Origin: an uncultured Chitinophagaceae bacterium
GTDB taxonomy: Bacteria > Bacteroidota > Bacteroidia > Chitinophagales > Chitinophagaceae
NCBI GenBank assembly: GCA_946885665.1
Contig: CAMPGT010000113.1
Coordinates: forward strand, 1-12,231
DNA: 12,231 nucleotides
Direction: 5' to 3'
In this document: positions 1 through 10,438 of the stretch, piece after piece
How positions within the stretch are numbered: position 1 is the first letter of the stretch
Layout: every line of letters begins with the position of its first letter
Notes under the pieces: generated by a model
The model's input: only the letters and a program-made list of their open reading frames with translations
What the model was told of the DNA's origin: nothing
The model's database searches: none
Made by a program: the position numbers and the translations under genes

Positions 1-2685
1 CTGGTCAACAAGATGCAGGCTCTTGCAAAAACGCCGCTGTTCATTTCCATAGATGCCGAAAATGGGCTGGGCATGAGGATGGACAGCGTTTTGCCGTTAC
101 CGCGACAAATGATGATGGGCGCGATGGACGATCCCTCGCTTGTCTATGAATATGGCAGGCTGGTTGGCGAACAGTGCAAAAGAATGGGCATACAGATCAA
201 CTACGCACCAGTGGTCGATGTTAATAACAATCCCGCCAACCCGGTAATCAACGACCGGTCTTTTGGCGAAGACAAACATAAAGTGGCGCTGTACGGCATG
301 CAATACATGCGTGGCTTGCAGGATGTTGGTGTCATGGCGTGCGCCAAGCATTTTCCCGGCCATGGCGACGTTGCAGTCGATTCGCATCTCGATCTGCCTG
401 TCATCAAAAAAAGCATGGCGCAGCTCGATTCGCTGGAGCTGTACCCCTTCCGGCAAATGGTAAAGGCCGGCGTGGGCGCGGTGATGGTGGCCCATCTGTC
501 CATTCCCGCGATAGAAAGCAGGCCAAATATTGCGTCGTCCATCTCCTACAATAATGTCACAAAACTGCTGCGCAACGACCTCGGTCATAAAGGTCTCATC
601 ATCACCGACGCGCTGGAAATGAAGGGCGTTTCGAAATATTTTCCTCCGGGCGAAGTTTCGGTAAAGGCGCTCGAAGCGGGTAACGACATGCTGTGCCTGC
701 CGGGCGATATTCCCGAAAGCATTCAAAAGATAAAAGACGCCATCAAGAAGAAGGACCTTGAATGGAGCGATGTTAATCAGCATGTAAAAAACATTCTGTA
801 CGCCAAATACCAGTATGGCCTTTCAGTGCTTCAGCCGGTGAGCCTCAACCATCTTGTGGAAGATCTTAATGCAAAGACCGCCGACATGCGCAGGCTGGTT
901 GCCCAAAAAGCTATCACGCTTCTCAGGAACGAGGACAAATCCATCTTCCCCCTTCCGAAAGGGAAAAGAGTTGCCTACCTGGGCCTCGGACTTACAAAGG
1001 ACAACGCCTTTGCGAGAGAAGTGCGCAACGAATACGATGCGCATGTTTATTATTTCGATTACAAGATGAGCCAGGCATCCATTGAGCCGCTCATGGACCT
1101 CATGGGCAACAGGTACGACGTGGTGATCATCGGTGTTCACAATTACAACCGCTTTCCGGGGAATGATTTTGGGATCAGCAAGGCGGCGTGGGGACTGATG
1201 CAACTTGTGCAGCAGCGCTACCGCACCATCACGATGTTTTTCGGGAATCCCTATGCGATTCAAAAAGTTTGCAACAGCAATATACTCGTTGCATGTTACG
1301 AAGACGACGCTGTAACGCAGGAATCGGCGGCCGATGTGCTGTCGGGCAGGTTTTTACCGAAAGGAAAACTTCCCGTAACCGTTTGCCCGGCGCTGAAGGC
1401 CGGCGACGGCATAGTGACAGCCCGGCTGCTGCCCAATGCGCGGCCCGCCGATGTGGGTTTTAATATCAGTAAACTGGTAGGTATCGATTCGATCGTGAAT
1501 GACGCCATCATGCATCGTGCCATACCGGGCGCAGTGGTATTGGTGGCCAAAGACGGAAAGATAGCATTCGAACGTGGCTACGGCTATCTTGGGTATGACA
1601 GCGCCGAGGCGGTTTACCCCGAAACCATGTACGACCTTGCCTCGATAACCAAGATCCTGGCAACCACCCTGTCGGTAATGAAACTGTACGACGAAGGGCG
1701 GCTCGACCTCCATAAAACACTCGGCAATTACCTGAGCTGGACGAGAGGAACGAATAAGGCCAGGCTCACGCTTTGGGATATCATTCTGCACCAGGCCGGG
1801 TTAAAAGCCTGGATCCCCTTTTACCGCGAAACGCTTGACACTTCGCGCTCGCAGAGCCCTTCATTTTCCATCTATGCAAGTAACCGGGATTCTGTTCACG
1901 GTGTGCGTGTGGCCGAACACCTGTATATGCGCCGCGACTGGACCGACACGATATACCGGCGTATACTGGATAGCCGCGTGACAAAAACGGGCGTTTACAT
2001 TTACAGCGACCTGGATTTCATTTTCCTGGGAAAGATCGTTGAGCAGATAACGGGAATGACGCTCGACAAATACGTGAAGAAAACTTTTTACGATCCTTTG
2101 CACCTGCAGTCCACCACGTTTAAACCGAGGGAGCATTTTTGGCTGAACAACATTGCACCCACCGAAACGGAACCCATTTTCAGGATGCAGACGATAAAAG
2201 GGGATGTTCATGATCCCGGCGCGGCAATGTTCGGTGGTGTTGCCGGTCATGCAGGTCTATTCAGCGATGCATACGACATGGCCGTGCTCTGCCAGATGCT
2301 GCTGAACGGCGGAACGATCAACGGCATCCGGTTCTTCAAAAAATCAACCGTAGACTACTTCACGGCATACCATTCGACCAGCCGCCGCGGGCTCGGCTTC
2401 GACAAGCCGGCAAAGGATAACGACCGGAGGTCGGAGCCATACCCTACGCTGTCCGCATCACCGTTTACTTTCGGCCATACAGGGTTTACAGGCACCTGCA
2501 TGTGGATTGATCCGCTGCATAATCTCATATACATTTTCCTGTCGAACAGGGTGTACACCAATGGCGATATTAACCGGTTTCTGCGAATGAACGTAAGGCC
2601 GAACGTACATGAACTGATCTATGAGTCGCTGGGCAAGCCAGCGGTGTTTAACACTGCTTCGGCGTCCCAAACGCGAAAGATGTAG
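1..2685 (+). CDS. GH3 beta-N-acetylhexosaminidase fused to beta-lactamase-like serine hydrolase (5' partial)
   Basis: The reading frame is open from base 1, and the codons before the first ATG (13) already match the GH3 family, so the true start and probable signal peptide lie upstream. The N-terminal part is a NagZ-type GH3 domain. It has the KHFPGHG motif (346-366) followed by the Asp-Ser-His triplet (379-387) that supplies the acid/base dyad, and the TDALEM segment with the likely Asp nucleophile (607-609). A GH3 C-terminal-like domain follows (about 880-1440). From about 1470 on it is a class C beta-lactamase/esterase fold: SITK with the catalytic Ser (1642-1644) and Lys (1651-1653), YSD (2002-2010) in place of YxN, and HTG (2476-2484) in place of KTG. 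GH3 enzymes of this type release N-acetylglucosamine from cell-wall fragments. The hydrolase half may be an esterase or amidase acting on the same material; that link is inference. All key catalytic residues are present. Confidence 0.93.
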   Translation: MVNKMQALAKTPLFISIDAENGLGMRMDSVLPLPRQMMMGAMDDPSLVYEYGRLVGEQCKRMGIQINYAPVVDVNNNPANPVINDRSFGEDKHKVALYGMQYMRGLQDVGVMACAKHFPGHGDVAVDSHLDLPVIKKSMAQLDSLELYPFRQMVKAGVGAVMVAHLSIPAIESRPNIASSISYNNVTKLLRNDLGHKGLIITDALEMKGVSKYFPPGEVSVKALEAGNDMLCLPGDIPESIQKIKDAIKKKDLEWSDVNQHVKNILYAKYQYGLSVLQPVSLNHLVEDLNAKTADMRRLVAQKAITLLRNEDKSIFPLPKGKRVAYLGLGLTKDNAFAREVRNEYDAHVYYFDYKMSQASIEPLMDLMGNRYDVVIIGVHNYNRFPGNDFGISKAAWGLMQLVQQRYRTITMFFGNPYAIQKVCNSNILVACYEDDAVTQESAADVLSGRFLPKGKLPVTVCPALKAGDGIVTARLLPNARPADVGFNISKLVGIDSIVNDAIMHRAIPGAVVLVAKDGKIAFERGYGYLGYDSAEAVYPETMYDLASITKILATTLSVMKLYDEGRLDLHKTLGNYLSWTRGTNKARLTLWDIILHQAGLKAWIPFYRETLDTSRSQSPSFSIYASNRDSVHGVRVAEHLYMRRDWTDTIYRRILDSRVTKTGVYIYSDLDFIFLGKIVEQITGMTLDKYVKKTFYDPLHLQSTTFKPREHFWLNNIAPTETEPIFRMQTIKGDVHDPGAAMFGGVAGHAGLFSDAYDMAVLCQMLLNGGTINGIRFFKKSTVDYFTAYHSTSRRGLGFDKPAKDNDRRSEPYPTLSASPFTFGHTGFTGTCMWIDPLHNLIYIFLSNRVYTNGDINRFLRMNVRPNVHELIYESLGKPAVFNTASASQTRKM

Positions 2686-4669: not shown

Positions 4670-5923
4670 TCAGTCCCCCGAAAAAATAAAGGCAATCGTA
4701 AACGCCAGGATAGAGACAATGAGACCGTACATAAAAATGCTGTACGACAGTCGGAGAAACTTGTATTTCCTGGCGAGCACCACTCCTAAAAAGTAAATAT
4801 CCTTGATCATACTGCCATACAGGTAGTCTTTATCCTTCATCATTTCTTTCATGGCCCAATCGTAATCGGGCAACTGCATGTTGTAGAAATTTCCGAAAAA
4901 TAACAGGTTCACCTGCTTGTTCTCAATATCATTACGGGTAAAGGTGCCGCTGCTGATATTCGGGCGCGTGGCCAGGATGGCAAAAATGACGGCGGTAAGG
5001 CACACGCCAACTAATATAATGGTGGGGATAATGAATTCGGGGTAGAACTGCAGCTTACCCAGCAGCACCGACACCATTATGGAGATAACGATGGTATTCA
5101 CCGAGATCATGATGTTCGCTTTGCTGTCGGCCATCTGGCTAAGATTGTTGTGGCTTTCCGACATGATCCTGAACATGGCCACAATACCCCGGTCGGTGCG
5201 ATCGCGCTTTTCTTTAGGGACATCAACAGGTTTTTCGTCAACAGGTTTTTCGTCAACAGGGTCAGGAGCCGGCTCTGCCGCAAATTTTTCCGAAATAAGA
5301 GGATGTGGTTCCTTCTTTTTCTTACCCGTCTTTTCCTTCAGCTCTTCGAGATGGCGGTGTTTTACCGGTTCGAGGGCTTCCCGCGCGTATTCGGTGAAAT
5401 ACCGGTGGCGTTCGAGAAATTCGATATTCAGTCTCCTCCAGTCTTTCTTCCCTATTTTTTCATGTTGAAAATTGTTGATCTCCTCCCTTAACAGTTTGTT
5501 CTTCTTGTTAAATTCGTCGGTGCCGAGATGGAAGAGGTCGGCGTCACAGATGATGCGTTGTATGAGGTTACCGGGCGACTGGGGCATTCTGGTGGCGAGA
5601 ATGCATCCGTTTACTTTATGGATCAGCTCAATCGGCACGTTGCGCTGCTGCAGAAATTCCGTGGCGATGCGTGCGCTCTCCTCCTCATGCACTTTCTTCG
5701 ACCCCGATGAATAGCCCGTATCATGAAACCATGCGGCTAATAAGAGAGCGGTATGATCGGTTTCGTCGAGCTCATAGTTTCCTGCGATCATTTCACAATG
5801 CAAAACCACGTCACGCGTATGCGCAAACGAATGAAACATCAGCTCTTTGGCTATCTTTTGCGAAAAGATATTCACTACGTATTGTTCAGCAGCGGCAACA
5901 AGGGCCTTATTCGATTCAGTCAT
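4670..5923 (-). CDS. HD-domain phosphohydrolase fused to Pycsar-effector-like transmembrane domain
   Basis: The protein has 417 residues. The N-terminal half (about 10-190) is an HD-superfamily metal-dependent phosphohydrolase: His31 and His35 in FHSFAH, the His67-Asp68 doublet in WFHDTGY, and Asp127/Asp129 in CDADL. A charged low-complexity linker (about 195-240) contains a run of Lys and two tandem DEKPV units. The C-terminal part has an amphipathic segment with NNLSQMADSKANIMIS, then two hydrophobic helices (about 270-293 and 298-320), a soluble stretch, and a last membrane helix ending in IAFIFSGD. This C-terminal layout resembles the PycTM family (formerly DUF5706), the membrane effector of Pycsar anti-phage systems activated by cCMP or cUMP. 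The family call is by recognition, not a search. No cyclase gene is near, so an immune role is not shown; HD-PycTM fusions may be ordinary chromosomal genes in Bacteroidota. It is transcribed divergently from the propeller gene and converges on the korA-like gene. Confidence 0.85.
   Translation of the reverse strand: MTESNKALVAAAEQYVVNIFSQKIAKELMFHSFAHTRDVVLHCEMIAGNYELDETDHTALLLAAWFHDTGYSSGSKKVHEEESARIATEFLQQRNVPIELIHKVNGCILATRMPQSPGNLIQRIICDADLFHLGTDEFNKKNKLLREEINNFQHEKIGKKDWRRLNIEFLERHRYFTEYAREALEPVKHRHLEELKEKTGKKKKEPHPLISEKFAAEPAPDPVDEKPVDEKPVDVPKEKRDRTDRGIVAMFRIMSESHNNLSQMADSKANIMISVNTIVISIMVSVLLGKLQFYPEFIIPTIILVGVCLTAVIFAILATRPNISSGTFTRNDIENKQVNLLFFGNFYNMQLPDYDWAMKEMMKDKDYLYGSMIKDIYFLGVVLARKYKFLRLSYSIFMYGLIVSILAFTIAFIFSGD
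5223..5260. repeat. 15-bp in-frame tandem repeat in the HD-PycTM linker
   Basis: The unit tcaacaggtttttcg occurs twice in full (5223-5237, 5238-5252), followed by a partial third copy (5253-5260). On the - strand it encodes repeated DEKPV in the charged linker between the HD and membrane domains. The copies are identical, which suggests recent slippage expansion. A unit length divisible by three keeps the frame, so linker length may vary between strains. Confidence 0.9.
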
Positions 5924-5976: not shown

Positions 5977-6813
5977 ATGCTGTTCCCCCGGGGTTTTGTT
6001 CTTTCAGTCATATTGGCGGCAGTTTTGGGAATGTCGTGCGGGTCGCATGCTGGAAAATCGATCGTGCCACAAATACCCGGCTATTCCGACAAAAGCAAAC
6101 AAGAATTTATACTGGACGACGACCTGCTTGAAGTGTCGGGCATTTGCTACATCAATGAACACAAAATGGCGGCCGTCAATGACGAACGCGGTGAACTTTT
6201 TATCATTGATTTAACGAACGGCGCCAAAACAGCGACAACCTTTGCCGGAAAGGGCGACTACGAAGAAGTGGTAAAGGCAGATACCAATTTTTTTGTATTG
6301 CAAAGCCGCGGCGATATTTACGAAGTGACCAACACCAACAAGAAGAAGCGCTATAAATTCGATCTTGAAAAGAAAATAGAATTTGAATCGATGGTGTGGT
6401 ATCCCGGCCGGGGTAAGCTTGTGCTTATTTCAAAAGAGCAGCGAAAGCGGCATGGCGGCATCATCGCTTACGCATTCGACGTGACCACCAGGAAGTTTGA
6501 TCCGGAGCCAGTTTTCAAAATTCCCTATAAAGACATATTCACGAAGCTGGAAGACTACAGCGCAGAGTGTAAACCTTCAGGCGCCGCCATCAACCCGGTC
6601 AACAACAAACTATATATAATTGCTTCGGTTGGCAAAGTCTTGTTGGAGTGCGATGTGAACGGCCGGCTTGAAAGAGTGTATAAACTCAATCCTAATCACT
6701 TCCCGCAACCGGAAGGTATAAGTTTTGCAGCCAACGGCGACATGTACGTTTCGAACGAAGGCCTGCAGGGGAAAGCCACCATCCTGAAATTTCCATACGT
6801 TGCTTCGAAGTAA
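5977..6813 (+). CDS. SdiA-regulated-type beta-propeller protein, probable lipoprotein
   Basis: The protein has 278 residues. It opens with a hydrophobic export signal ending at Cys21 (LGMSCG), a loose Bacteroidota-style lipobox with no acidic surface-export signal after the Cys. The mature part has propeller-like strands typical of the SdiA-regulated (YjiK-like) family. These include LLEVSGICYI near the start, a central EFESMVWYPGRGKLVLISKE and a late PQPEGISFAANGDMYVSNEG; the last two carry the Glu-Gly/Glu-Ser and Asn-Glu motifs common in such propellers. The family name reflects regulation in enteric bacteria and gives no biochemical role. The gene overlaps the next one by 14 nt, so the two are probably co-translated, and this protein may act with the outer-membrane phosphatase fusion. 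The ATG at 5977 gives a complete signal peptide. Its substrate or ligand is unknown. Confidence 0.82.
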   Translation: MLFPRGFVLSVILAAVLGMSCGSHAGKSIVPQIPGYSDKSKQEFILDDDLLEVSGICYINEHKMAAVNDERGELFIIDLTNGAKTATTFAGKGDYEEVVKADTNFFVLQSRGDIYEVTNTNKKKRYKFDLEKKIEFESMVWYPGRGKLVLISKEQRKRHGGIIAYAFDVTTRKFDPEPVFKIPYKDIFTKLEDYSAECKPSGAAINPVNNKLYIIASVGKVLLECDVNGRLERVYKLNPNHFPQPEGISFAANGDMYVSNEGLQGKATILKFPYVASK

Positions 6814-9800
6814 ACCATATCTGCTGTTTGCCGTTCTGATGATGCTTACGGCAGGGAAGCTGTTTGCACAGGACGATACGCTCAGCCGGCGCATCATTTT
6901 TATCGGCGACGCCGGCGAGCAGAAAAATGGCGTGCATCCGGAACTGGAATATCTGAAAAAACACTTCAGGCTCGACAGCAGGGTAACGATTGTTTACCTG
7001 GGCGACAATGTTTACCCGCAAGGGCTGCCTTCGCGCTACGCCGAAAATTATCCGGAGAAGAAACAAATACTCGACAGCCAGATCAACGTAGTGCGCGGGA
7101 AACAGGCAACGGCATATTTCATTGCGGGCAACCACGACTGGATGCAGGGGAGAAAAGACGGATACCAGCAAATCATTAACCAGTACAGGTATATTGAATC
7201 GCGTAACCTGCCGAATGTTCATTTTGTGCCCGATAACGCCTGCCCCGGACCACAGGAGATTCGCCTGTCCAATAAAGTTACACTCGTCGTGATCGATAGC
7301 CAGTGGTGGCTGCACCGGTATGAAAAGCCCGGCGTTGGATCGGGATGCGATTGCAACACCGAGGCTGAAATGCTTGAACGCCTCGACGACATCGTACACC
7401 GGAATGAAGACAAGCTGCTGCTATTTGCGGCACATCACCCGTTCATCACATTCGGCAGGCATGGCGGATATTACAACCTGAAGGCGCATATCTTCCCCTT
7501 CACCGACCTGAATCCATCATTGTACATTCCCTTGCCGGTCATCGGCTCGATCTATCCCATCGCGCGCGGCGTATTCGGCAATATCCAGGACACAAGGCAC
7601 CCGCTATATAAAAACTTTATCAGGGATGTAGACAGTATTCTCAGCGAACACCCTAACTGCATCAGGCTCGCGGGACACGAACACAACCTGCAGTTCATCA
7701 AACAAAACGATGAATATTATGTCGTCAGCGGAGCGGGTTCCAAGCACGCCGATATCACCAAAGACGACAGGCTGCTGTTTTCATCGCTTAAAAGCGGGTT
7801 TGCCGCAATAGATGTTACGACTAACGGAAACGTGTATGTGAAATTCTTTTCGTCCGAAAGCGATTCCGTTGGGGCACCCTTATTTGTGAGCGCGCTGCCG
7901 TCAATTGATTCGACTCAAATGGTTACAAAACAAAAACCGGTGCCGCCACTTCCGGATTCAGTAACTGTTGCCGCTGCGAATTATTATGGAGCCCGGCCGC
8001 TTAAGAAGTGGCTGATGGGCGAAAACTACCGCAACGAATGGATGCAACCCGTGAAAGTGAAAGTATTTGACATAGGCGCTGAAGGTGGCGGGATGAAAGT
8101 GATAAGGGAGAATAGAGAAGCGCAAACGCGATCGCTGGAGTTGGAAGACAGTCGTGGCAACGGGTATGTGTTGAGAAGCGTTGAAAAGTTTCCAGATGCC
8201 ACTTTGCCGGAGGAGTTTCGCCAAACCATCATCAAAGATGCCGTTATAGATGCCTTTTCGGCTTCTTATCCGTATGCGGCGCTGTCCGTTGCACCGCTTT
8301 CCGCAAAAATCCATCCTTCGTTGGCGCGGCCACAGCTCGTGTACATACCCGACGATCCCCGGCTGGGTTATTACCAGGAGAAATTCGCCCACTCGCTGGC
8401 CATCTTTGAAGCGAGGGAGCCGAAAAAGTATGGCGAAAATAAATCCACGCACGCGGTTCTTGAAACAATCAGGGAAGACAATGATGGCAAAGTTGATCAA
8501 CACGCCGTACTCACCGAGAGGTTGCTCGATATGTTCGTGATGGATTTTAACAGGCACGAGGATCAATGGCAGTGGAATGCAAATGACACAGGTAAAGGAA
8601 AACTGTACCATCCGGTTCCGCGCGACCGCGACCAGGCGTTCTACGTCAATATGGGTGTGATCCCCCGAATGCTTCGAAAACCATGGAGAATGCCGAGGCT
8701 GCAGGGATTTGGGGCAAGGGCCATCAACATCAACACCTTTAACTACAGCGCGCGTGACTTCGACAGAACATTTCTCAATTCGCTAACTAAAAGCGATTGG
8801 ACGCGGCAGGCCGACTCGTTCATTACGAATATGTCGGACGATGTGATTGAAAGTGCCCTGAGGAAACAGCCACCGGAAATATTTCCTTATTCGGGCAATG
8901 AAATTATCCAAACGCTCAAGGAGAGAAGAAACTATTTGAAAGATGAAGTGCTTCAGTATTATAAATTCCTCTCGCGGGAGGTGGAGATAACCGGCAGCGA
9001 CAAGAACGAACTTTTTGAAGTGCAGAACAAAGATGACGGTTCAAGCGAGGTGAGTGTATTCAAAATTGCTGATAAAAGCGGCGAGCGCATGTTAACGTAC
9101 AACCGGCGATTTATTCCGCAGGAAACAAAAGAGATCAGGCTTTTTGGACTGGACGGCAAAGACAGTTTCCACATCTCAGGGTCGGCGAACAGCCTGATCC
9201 GCATACGCTTGCTGGGAGGAAACGGTCAGGATAGCTATGTGAATGAAAGCAGCCGCAGGAAGCGGTCCACGATTGCCTATGACATAAAAGGCGACACGGA
9301 CCGGTTCATTGGAAATATGAAGAAGCGCATTTCCGCTGATCCTTCCACCAATATCTATAAAAGAAAAAATTTTCAGTACGACATTCTGCGGCCCAAAAAA
9401 TATTTCGCTTACAACCGTGATGACGGTTTGTTCCTGGGTGCCGGACTTGTTTACACCACACACGGGTTCAGGAAAGAGCCGTTCAGGATGAGGCAGGAAT
9501 TGAAGGGGCAGGTGGCGATGCTCACGTGGGCCTACCGGTTCCAATACGACCTGGAGCTTACTGATGCGGTTGGCAGCAGCGACCTGGTAATGCACGCCGA
9601 CGTGCGTGTGCCCAACAACAACATTAATTATTTCGGGAAGGGCAACAATACCGAAAACAACATTAACGATGGCAGGGGTGCGCAATATTACCGGACTCGT
9701 TTCTTTCACGGCGATTTTGCGGCGTTGCTGAGAAGAGAAATTTTACCCGACATAAATTTTTATTATGGTCCCACTTTCCAGGCATTCCGTGCAGATAGTA

Positions 9801-10438
9801 TTGACAATGTAGAGCGCGTTATTGCTTATCCGCACCTTGCGGGCCTCGACAGTTCCACGCTCTACAAATGGAAAACTTATGCGGGATTGGCCACCCGGCT
9901 TGTTATTGACAACAGGAATGATATCAATTATCCCACGCGCGGCGTTAATTGGGTCACCACCGCGCAATTCAATCGCGGATTGAACGGCTACAGCTCCAAT
10001 TTCTCGCAGTTGAAATCCGACTTGTCCATTTACATCAGTTCCAATGCTCCGCCGCGAACGGTTGTGGCGGTACGGTTTGGCGCGGGTTTCAATTTTGGGA
10101 AATACGAATTCTACCAGTCGCAGTTTCTGAGCGGGCTCGATAATCTAAGGGGCTATCGCAAGTTCCGGTTTGCCGGCGATAAAATGTTTTACAACAACAT
10201 TGACATACGCATCAGGCTAAAAAATTACCAGGGATATTTGTTCACCGGATCTTACGGAATATTGCTGTTCCATGACATCGGAAGGGTGTGGGTGAAAGGA
10301 GAAACGTCGGGAAGATGGCACAATGGTTATGGCATTGGCGCGTGGGTGTCGCCTGCCAACAGGTTCGTGCTTACGGCGTCGTACATGCGCTCCAAAGAAG
10401 GCGCCTTACCGCTCGTGAGCCTTGGTTTTCAATTCTGA
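6800..10438 (+). CDS. Exported TRAP-like metallophosphatase fused to kinase-like middle domain and Omp85 barrel
   Basis: The protein has 1212 residues. The start is TTG at 6800: the frame opens only at a TGA at 6785-6787, and the first ATG (6839) would cut the signal peptide (LLFAVLMMLTAGKLFAQ) in half. Residues about 30-360 are a calcineurin-like phosphatase of the tartrate-resistant/purple acid phosphatase type. It has GDAG 36-39, GDNVY 68-72, GNHDW 110-114, AAHHP 210-214, GHEHNLQ from 292, then VVSGAG; all metal ligands, including the purple-type Tyr72, are present. Residues about 395-640 hold a second domain with YVLRSVEK (456-463), a catalytic-loop-like DFNRHEDQ (582-589) and DRDQAF (609-614), resembling secretory kinases of the FAM20/CotH type. 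From about 872 to the end is an Omp85/BamA-like barrel with the LRGY signature (1116-1119) and a terminal Phe beta-signal (LGFQF). It is likely anchored in the outer membrane with the enzymatic domains in the periplasm, unless exported further. Substrate unknown; the kinase-like reading is inference. Confidence 0.88.
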   Translation: MLRSKPYLLFAVLMMLTAGKLFAQDDTLSRRIIFIGDAGEQKNGVHPELEYLKKHFRLDSRVTIVYLGDNVYPQGLPSRYAENYPEKKQILDSQINVVRGKQATAYFIAGNHDWMQGRKDGYQQIINQYRYIESRNLPNVHFVPDNACPGPQEIRLSNKVTLVVIDSQWWLHRYEKPGVGSGCDCNTEAEMLERLDDIVHRNEDKLLLFAAHHPFITFGRHGGYYNLKAHIFPFTDLNPSLYIPLPVIGSIYPIARGVFGNIQDTRHPLYKNFIRDVDSILSEHPNCIRLAGHEHNLQFIKQNDEYYVVSGAGSKHADITKDDRLLFSSLKSGFAAIDVTTNGNVYVKFFSSESDSVGAPLFVSALPSIDSTQMVTKQKPVPPLPDSVTVAAANYYGARPLKKWLMGENYRNEWMQPVKVKVFDIGAEGGGMKVIRENREAQTRSLELEDSRGNGYVLRSVEKFPDATLPEEFRQTIIKDAVIDAFSASYPYAALSVAPLSAKIHPSLARPQLVYIPDDPRLGYYQEKFAHSLAIFEAREPKKYGENKSTHAVLETIREDNDGKVDQHAVLTERLLDMFVMDFNRHEDQWQWNANDTGKGKLYHPVPRDRDQAFYVNMGVIPRMLRKPWRMPRLQGFGARAININTFNYSARDFDRTFLNSLTKSDWTRQADSFITNMSDDVIESALRKQPPEIFPYSGNEIIQTLKERRNYLKDEVLQYYKFLSREVEITGSDKNELFEVQNKDDGSSEVSVFKIADKSGERMLTYNRRFIPQETKEIRLFGLDGKDSFHISGSANSLIRIRLLGGNGQDSYVNESSRRKRSTIAYDIKGDTDRFIGNMKKRISADPSTNIYKRKNFQYDILRPKKYFAYNRDDGLFLGAGLVYTTHGFRKEPFRMRQELKGQVAMLTWAYRFQYDLELTDAVGSSDLVMHADVRVPNNNINYFGKGNNTENNINDGRGAQYYRTRFFHGDFAALLRREILPDINFYYGPTFQAFRADSIDNVERVIAYPHLAGLDSSTLYKWKTYAGLATRLVIDNRNDINYPTRGVNWVTTAQFNRGLNGYSSNFSQLKSDLSIYISSNAPPRTVVAVRFGAGFNFGKYEFYQSQFLSGLDNLRGYRKFRFAGDKMFYNNIDIRIRLKNYQGYLFTGSYGILLFHDIGRVWVKGETSGRWHNGYGIGAWVSPANRFVLTASYMRSKEGALPLVSLGFQF

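Follow-up and report, generated by a model that had tools for sequence, protein, structure and literature searches.

Domain architecture of the protein

The window analyzed here is the whole stretch of 12,231 nucleotides from a contig of an uncultured Chitinophagaceae bacterium. It contains a gene for a 1212-residue protein in which a preliminary description, made from the sequence, had proposed that one exported chain combines a phosphatase with a secretory-kinase-like domain. From its N-terminus the protein is composed of a signal peptide, a metallophosphatase, a kinase-like domain, a beta domain and an Omp85-type barrel (Table 1), and the proposed combination is supported by a PF00149 match and a predicted kinase-like fold in the same chain. 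By inspection, the signal peptide is complete when translation begins at the TTG codon and would be truncated by a start at the ATG at 6839. A Pfam search of the whole protein identified a calcineurin-like phosphoesterase at residues 31-228 and an Omp85 domain at residues 934-1195, and the region between them was without a match.

Table 1. Features of the kinase-barrel gene, its product and its neighbors in the window
Feature	Position	Strand	Details
HD domain and PycTM (Pycsar effector membrane domain) protein	4670..5923	-	Pfam; divergent neighbor
SdiA-regulated (propeller-type) exported protein	5977..6813	+	PF06977; overlaps start of kinase-barrel gene
Phosphatase-kinase-like-barrel open reading frame	6800..10438	+	1212 aa, TTG start
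Calcineurin-like / purple-acid-phosphatase-like domain, residues 31-355	6890..7864	+	PF00149 E 4.6e-7, residues 31-228
Kinase-like domain, residues 385-735 (about)	7952..9004	+	AlphaFold2 model, Foldseek and VIA matches
Glycine loop beta1/beta2, residues 438-440	8111..8119	+	N-R-E vs family G-G-G; family alignments
R459 on beta3	8174..8176	+	replaces usual Lys; invariant in family
K463 just after beta3	8186..8188	+	invariant, 127/127 readable domains
Catalytic-loop motif DFNRHEDQ (family DxDRHEDQ)	8543..8566	+	codon 584 AAC (8549-8551) is Asn, not the catalytic Asp
Metal-binding motif DRDQAF (DFG-like)	8624..8641	+	both Asp invariant
All-beta linker domain, residues 727-845	8978..9334	+	secondary structure of predicted model m6dc4d863a0a2
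16-stranded Omp85/TamA-type barrel, residues 862-1208	9383..10423	+	Pfam Omp85 match, predicted model
Weakly GAF-like protein, 606 aa	10406..12226	-	convergent neighbor

The kinase-like domain first noticed from the sequence is real. Structure prediction and a structural search, which the preliminary description had proposed as a check, gave a two-lobed kinase fold with conserved motifs: the AlphaFold2 model has a mean predicted local distance difference test score of 92.3 and a predicted template modeling score of 0.90, and its top matches among solved structures (Foldseek, VIA) are almost all kinases. The interval originally assigned to the domain, 7982-8720 (residues 395-640), lies inside it but does not span it, as the whole domain covers about residues 385-735. 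The likeness to FAM20/CotH-type kinases proposed at the outset is borne out for CotH, which together with HipA is among the structural matches; FAM20 and SelO are both absent among the 50 matches listed, which does not imply the exclusion of either.

Type II phosphatidylinositol 4-kinases (PI4KII), which are eukaryotic lipid kinases, share 9-11% identity with the domain among the matches listed and are not known to carry a signal peptide, a barrel or a phosphatase. CtkA of Helicobacter pylori (PDB 3akj/3akk/3akl) is both the top Foldseek match and the top sequence-profile match, with its DRH in register, and is 11-12% identical among the VIA matches. The spore-coat kinase CotH (PDB 5jd9/5jda; PF08757) differs in that the Bacteroidota CotH proteins compared read D-G-Y at the place of the family's D-R-H. 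Pfam scans were run on the window protein and on sets of five, 81 and a further seven members, and only scattered weak matches came up. The scans gave no match in the window protein to CotH (PF08757), FAM20 (PF06702) or HipA_C/HipA_2 (PF07804, PF20613), none to the HipA models in P0196, and no CotH or HipA model among the 25 families listed, of 28 matched, for the 81 members. PDB-profile matches to ribonucleotide reductase, NfrA1 and HDAC6 disagree with the model and were taken as chance. A search for FAM20C in 61 Bacteroidota genomes found no match, as did the controls, and is hence uninformative.

The domains on either side place the protein among known systems. The phosphatase domain has weak PDB matches to GAP50 and purple acid phosphatase over residues 267-356, and its conserved residues are D37, D69, Y72, N111, H212, H293 and H295. 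Of two hallmarks of the Omp85 superfamily, a 16-stranded C-terminal barrel and at least one POTRA domain, the protein has the first and lacks the second: the model of residues 727-845 is all-beta, with no alpha/beta pattern or helix pair, and Pfam gave no POTRA match there. With PF00149 and PF01103 in one chain, the protein falls in the 'Metallo' Omp85 subfamily, with which it shares the phosphatase domain and barrel. Heinz and Lithgow (2014, PMC4104836) read the PF00149 domain of this subfamily as a metalloprotease; the subfamily is not among the clusters for which they list predicted POTRA domains, the passages concerned describe no middle domain, and the main text of the paper never uses the word kinase. 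The PlpD-type patatin-Omp85 proteins likewise have an enzyme domain before an Omp85 barrel, patatin and POTRA standing where the window protein has phosphatase, kinase-like and all-beta domains, and passages of PMC11116518 describe the PlpD enzyme domain as staying in the periplasm. A section of the review PMC10202324 counts a Riemerella metallophosphoesterase, which has phosphatase activity, as a type IX secretion effector; this is seemingly a different protein. Relatives of the window protein are named 'metallophosphoesterase' or 'BamA/TamA family', and proteins under these names hold a third domain that has gone unrecognized.

Distribution of the family

With residues 385-730 as the query, 1861 proteins were retrieved at E values up to 0.001, and a scan of GTDB species genomes gave at least 594 pattern matches, of which 577 were confirmed as relatives. 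Among the proteins retrieved by sequence search, the analysis covered the best 120 of the 1861 and the best 120 of the 1617 relatives of a barrel-less member. Titles of the best 80 loci include Flavihumibacter, Chitinophaga, Pontibacter, Rufibacter, Hymenobacter, Spirosoma, Mucilaginibacter and Pedobacter, and we take the genera of these loci all to belong to Bacteroidota. About a third of the Bacteroidota genomes in an evenly drawn set carry the kinase-like domain (142/395). The domain occurs eight times in one Hymenobacter genome, with three of the copies adjacent in a single locus.

The 117 loci hold 130 open frames that contain the domain, and 129 of these are distinct. By architecture, 74 are phosphatase-kinase-beta-barrel (one gene, L001 and L088, being counted twice here and among the 177 chains compared below), 42 are kinase-beta-barrel and 10 kinase-beta; 3 have the kinase domain alone, and 1 is phosphatase-kinase-beta. 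The barrel alignment was built from 64 of the 74 loci listed. In 11 of the 14 frames without a barrel match the all-beta domain, whole or in part, still follows the kinase domain; by eye, eight of the 14 have a lipobox-like signal start and three a membrane-anchor-like stretch. One of these frames (L046) ends at a contig end and two (L019, L029) stop early in the beta domain.

Our preferred reading is that these proteins form a large and apparently undescribed group of exported atypical kinases. Our literature search, which left subscription papers mostly uncovered, found among the papers listed none whose title or abstract opening points to the kinase-like domain.

Conservation of the active site

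The three motifs on which the preliminary description relied are where it placed them, YVLRSVEK at residues 456-463 (8165-8188), DFNRHEDQ at 582-589 and DRDQAF at 609-614, and their conservation is far beyond chance. R459, K463, D582, R585, H586, Q589, D609 and D611 are each present in 80/80 homologous loci, and D582, D609 and D611 in 129/129 distinct family domains. Asp occupies position 584 in 126 of the 129. G439, R459 and K463 never vary among the 127 domains that are readable in the glycine-loop region, the other two being truncated in the N-lobe. The barrel-less member's 120 best-listed relatives, all of about 490-555 aa, keep D584, G439, R459 and K463 without exception. This pattern makes the family look catalytically competent.

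Several of the first assignments had to be shifted. The Gly-rich stretch before YVLRSVEK (about 427-432), taken at first for the glycine loop, precedes beta1; in the model beta1 covers 433-439 and beta2 444-449, and the family's loop between them is GGG at 438-440. The D-x-N-R-H-x-x-D motif, likewise proposed as catalytic, corresponds to the family's conserved D-x-D-R-H motif, in which the catalytic Asp is at position 584 and not at D582. The latter lines up with an Asn that stands two positions ahead of the catalytic Asp of HipA and HipA_2, and of CotH in one of its two alignments. DRDQAF aligns, below significance, with WDYDLAF of CotH, and from this alignment and our general knowledge of kinases D609 would be the DFG-like metal-binding Asp, kept in the window protein.

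In two genomes, one of Pontibacter and one of Hymenobacter, three paralogs (L081, L082 and L086) have Ser, Ser and Gly at 584, apparently through losses independent of the window protein.

Loss of catalytic residues in the window protein

The window protein has N584 and N-R-E at 438-440 where the family has the catalytic Asp and GGG. The closest relatives (73, 71 and 70% identity across the domain) retain the family residues, so that the loss maps to the branch of the window protein itself, and the other 119 best-listed relatives keep D584 and G439. R447E and A503K also deviate from the consensus of 80 loci. A pseudokinase had been suspected from the Arg at the Lys position of beta3, which was also read as a hint of altered nucleotide use. 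The suspicion of a pseudokinase stands, on the lost glycine loop and D584, but the Arg contributes nothing to it, because Arg is found family-wide (127/127 readable domains) and is thus no sign of decay. The domain has what defines a pseudokinase, a kinase fold that has lost catalytic residues kept by its relatives; among the hallmarks of the kinase superfamily it has the fold and the DFG-like Asp and lacks the catalytic D-R-H Asp and the glycine loop.

We compared 177 full-length chains at the 101 sites conserved in at least 95% of them, distributed over four domain regions. The window protein deviates at three of the 36 kinase sites (G438N, G439R and D584N) and at none of the 20 phosphatase, 13 beta-domain and 32 barrel sites. 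What is exceptional is where these departures lie: all three fall on active-site positions, 12 of the 101 sites by our own choice, for which the chance is 0.0013, or 0.031 when drawing from kinase sites alone. The window protein and its nearest relative are most alike in the barrel (identity 0.84) and the phosphatase (0.83) and less so in the kinase (0.73) and the beta domain (0.66). Subtracting the phosphatase from the kinase identity gives -0.10, which ranks fourth from the bottom among the 177 chains (mean +0.03). The phosphatase domain, with 0/20 conserved sites changed, looks intact, and the kinase-like domain is probably a kinase-dead regulator.

Interpretation

We consider it likely, with a probability of roughly 0.72, that the window protein carries an extracytoplasmic domain of the atypical-kinase type (the PI4KII/CotH/CtkA/HipA kind) that is kinase-dead here and accompanied by an intact phosphatase. 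From the computed fold, the family-wide conservation of catalytic residues, the architecture and the losses we infer phosphotransfer, a regulatory role and a topology as follows. The kinase-like domain would probably lie on the periplasmic side of the TamA-like outer-membrane barrel, behind the phosphatase domain. Typical members may transfer phosphate or another nucleotide-derived group to an envelope substrate, and the phosphatase may act on that group or one related to it. The kinase domain of the window protein would no longer catalyze and would persist as a folded pseudokinase with a substrate- or partner-binding role; alternatively, it may control the adjacent intact phosphatase and barrel. 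FAM20A is comparable in principle.

A number of results weigh against this reading. Significant sequence similarity to a known kinase family is missing, the Pfam and NCBIfam matches being weak and unrelated, and the profile match to CtkA reached E 0.071 only. The hhalign probabilities are below 3% against HipA, HipA_2 and CotH (20, 15 and 12 proteins, respectively): 0.9, 2.4 and 0.4% with the family alignment and 0.6, 1.2 and 1.7% with a 250-row alignment, compared with 0.1-0.5% for unrelated phosphatase and barrel profiles. The motifs are in register in most of these weak alignments, and the register is informative for HipA and HipA_2. The register of the CotH catalytic loop is unstable, falling on 584 in one alignment and on D588 in another, and the metal-motif Asp of CtkA falls one residue before D609. 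The number of losses is unexceptional, as five of the 177 chains have more kinase-site departures and at least one other has as many; the beta domain, not the kinase domain, is the least conserved toward the nearest relative (0.67 vs 0.74, or 0.66 vs 0.73 in a second calculation); and the losses are present in the window protein and its 100% identical database copy, P0001, only. The membrane side is inferred from Omp85 topology, and pseudokinases sometimes keep or change activity. We know of no ATP pool in the periplasm, which leaves the donor unexplained even for intact members.

Such scarcity of ATP in the periplasm and at the surface is also what recommends the view that the kinase-like fold is a non-catalytic binding module throughout the family; the partner barrel and phosphatase, moreover, need no kinase. 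This view agrees with the preferred explanation for the window protein and differs on its relatives, and there the near-invariance of the catalytic-loop and metal motifs in 129 domains and 120 further relatives, a pattern of selected enzymes, renders it unlikely.

It is somewhat less probable still that the window domain remains an active enzyme with altered chemistry, such as use of another donor, transfer of AMP or another group, or catalysis tolerant of Asn. Pseudokinases of the SidJ or SelO type that proved to be enzymes would be precedents. The reference list of PMC9758233 includes a bacterial pseudokinase catalyzing polyglutamylation. The window protein keeps R459, K463, D582, Q589, D609 and D611, and metal binding may survive. 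Set against this are the replacement of both the glycine loop and the catalytic Asp, which all the other best-listed relatives keep (as G439 and D584), and the unusual divergence of the kinase domain compared with the phosphatase domain.

Sequencing or assembly errors would fit changes confined to the window and its identical copy, and D to N is possible by a single-base change; we regard them as a highly improbable source, since three adjacent codons (AAT AGA GAA, 438-440) and R447E differ within an open frame of 1212 codons and P0001 represents 22 member sequences on 3 contigs. A chance resemblance of the motifs with no relation to kinases, which the missing sequence match would allow, is next to negligible given the high-confidence model, the top solved matches that are nearly all kinases and motifs mostly in register.

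More broadly, and at slightly less than even odds in our estimate, the exported atypical kinases of Bacteroidota, many of them fused to a barrel and often to a phosphatase, may form a self-contained writer-and-eraser system for envelope phosphate, in which some members, the window protein included, are now pseudokinases that regulate the attached phosphatase. To our knowledge, few kinases have been described from the Gram-negative envelope, since its periplasm is presumed to be free of ATP, and a conserved exported kinase-like domain in 142 of 395 genomes raises the questions of donor and substrate directly. The canonical relatives, the three Asp-less paralogs and the window's natural kinase-dead member provide a ready comparison set.

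Genomic neighborhood

The counts that follow treat a locus cut off by its contig end as lacking the neighbor, and in them the comparison of architectures is confounded by taxonomy. The SdiA-regulated gene lies directly upstream in 23/46 phosphatase-kinase-barrel loci vs 0/34 kinase-barrel loci, and the HD-PycTM gene is near 20/46 vs 1/34. The GAF-like convergent neighbor occurs in 13/46 three-domain loci, with a length of mostly 700-800 aa in relatives. The SdiA-regulated protein is lipoprotein-like in several relatives. At the other end of the window, the frame at 13-2685 (+) reads as a glycoside hydrolase 3-like and beta-lactamase-like fusion.
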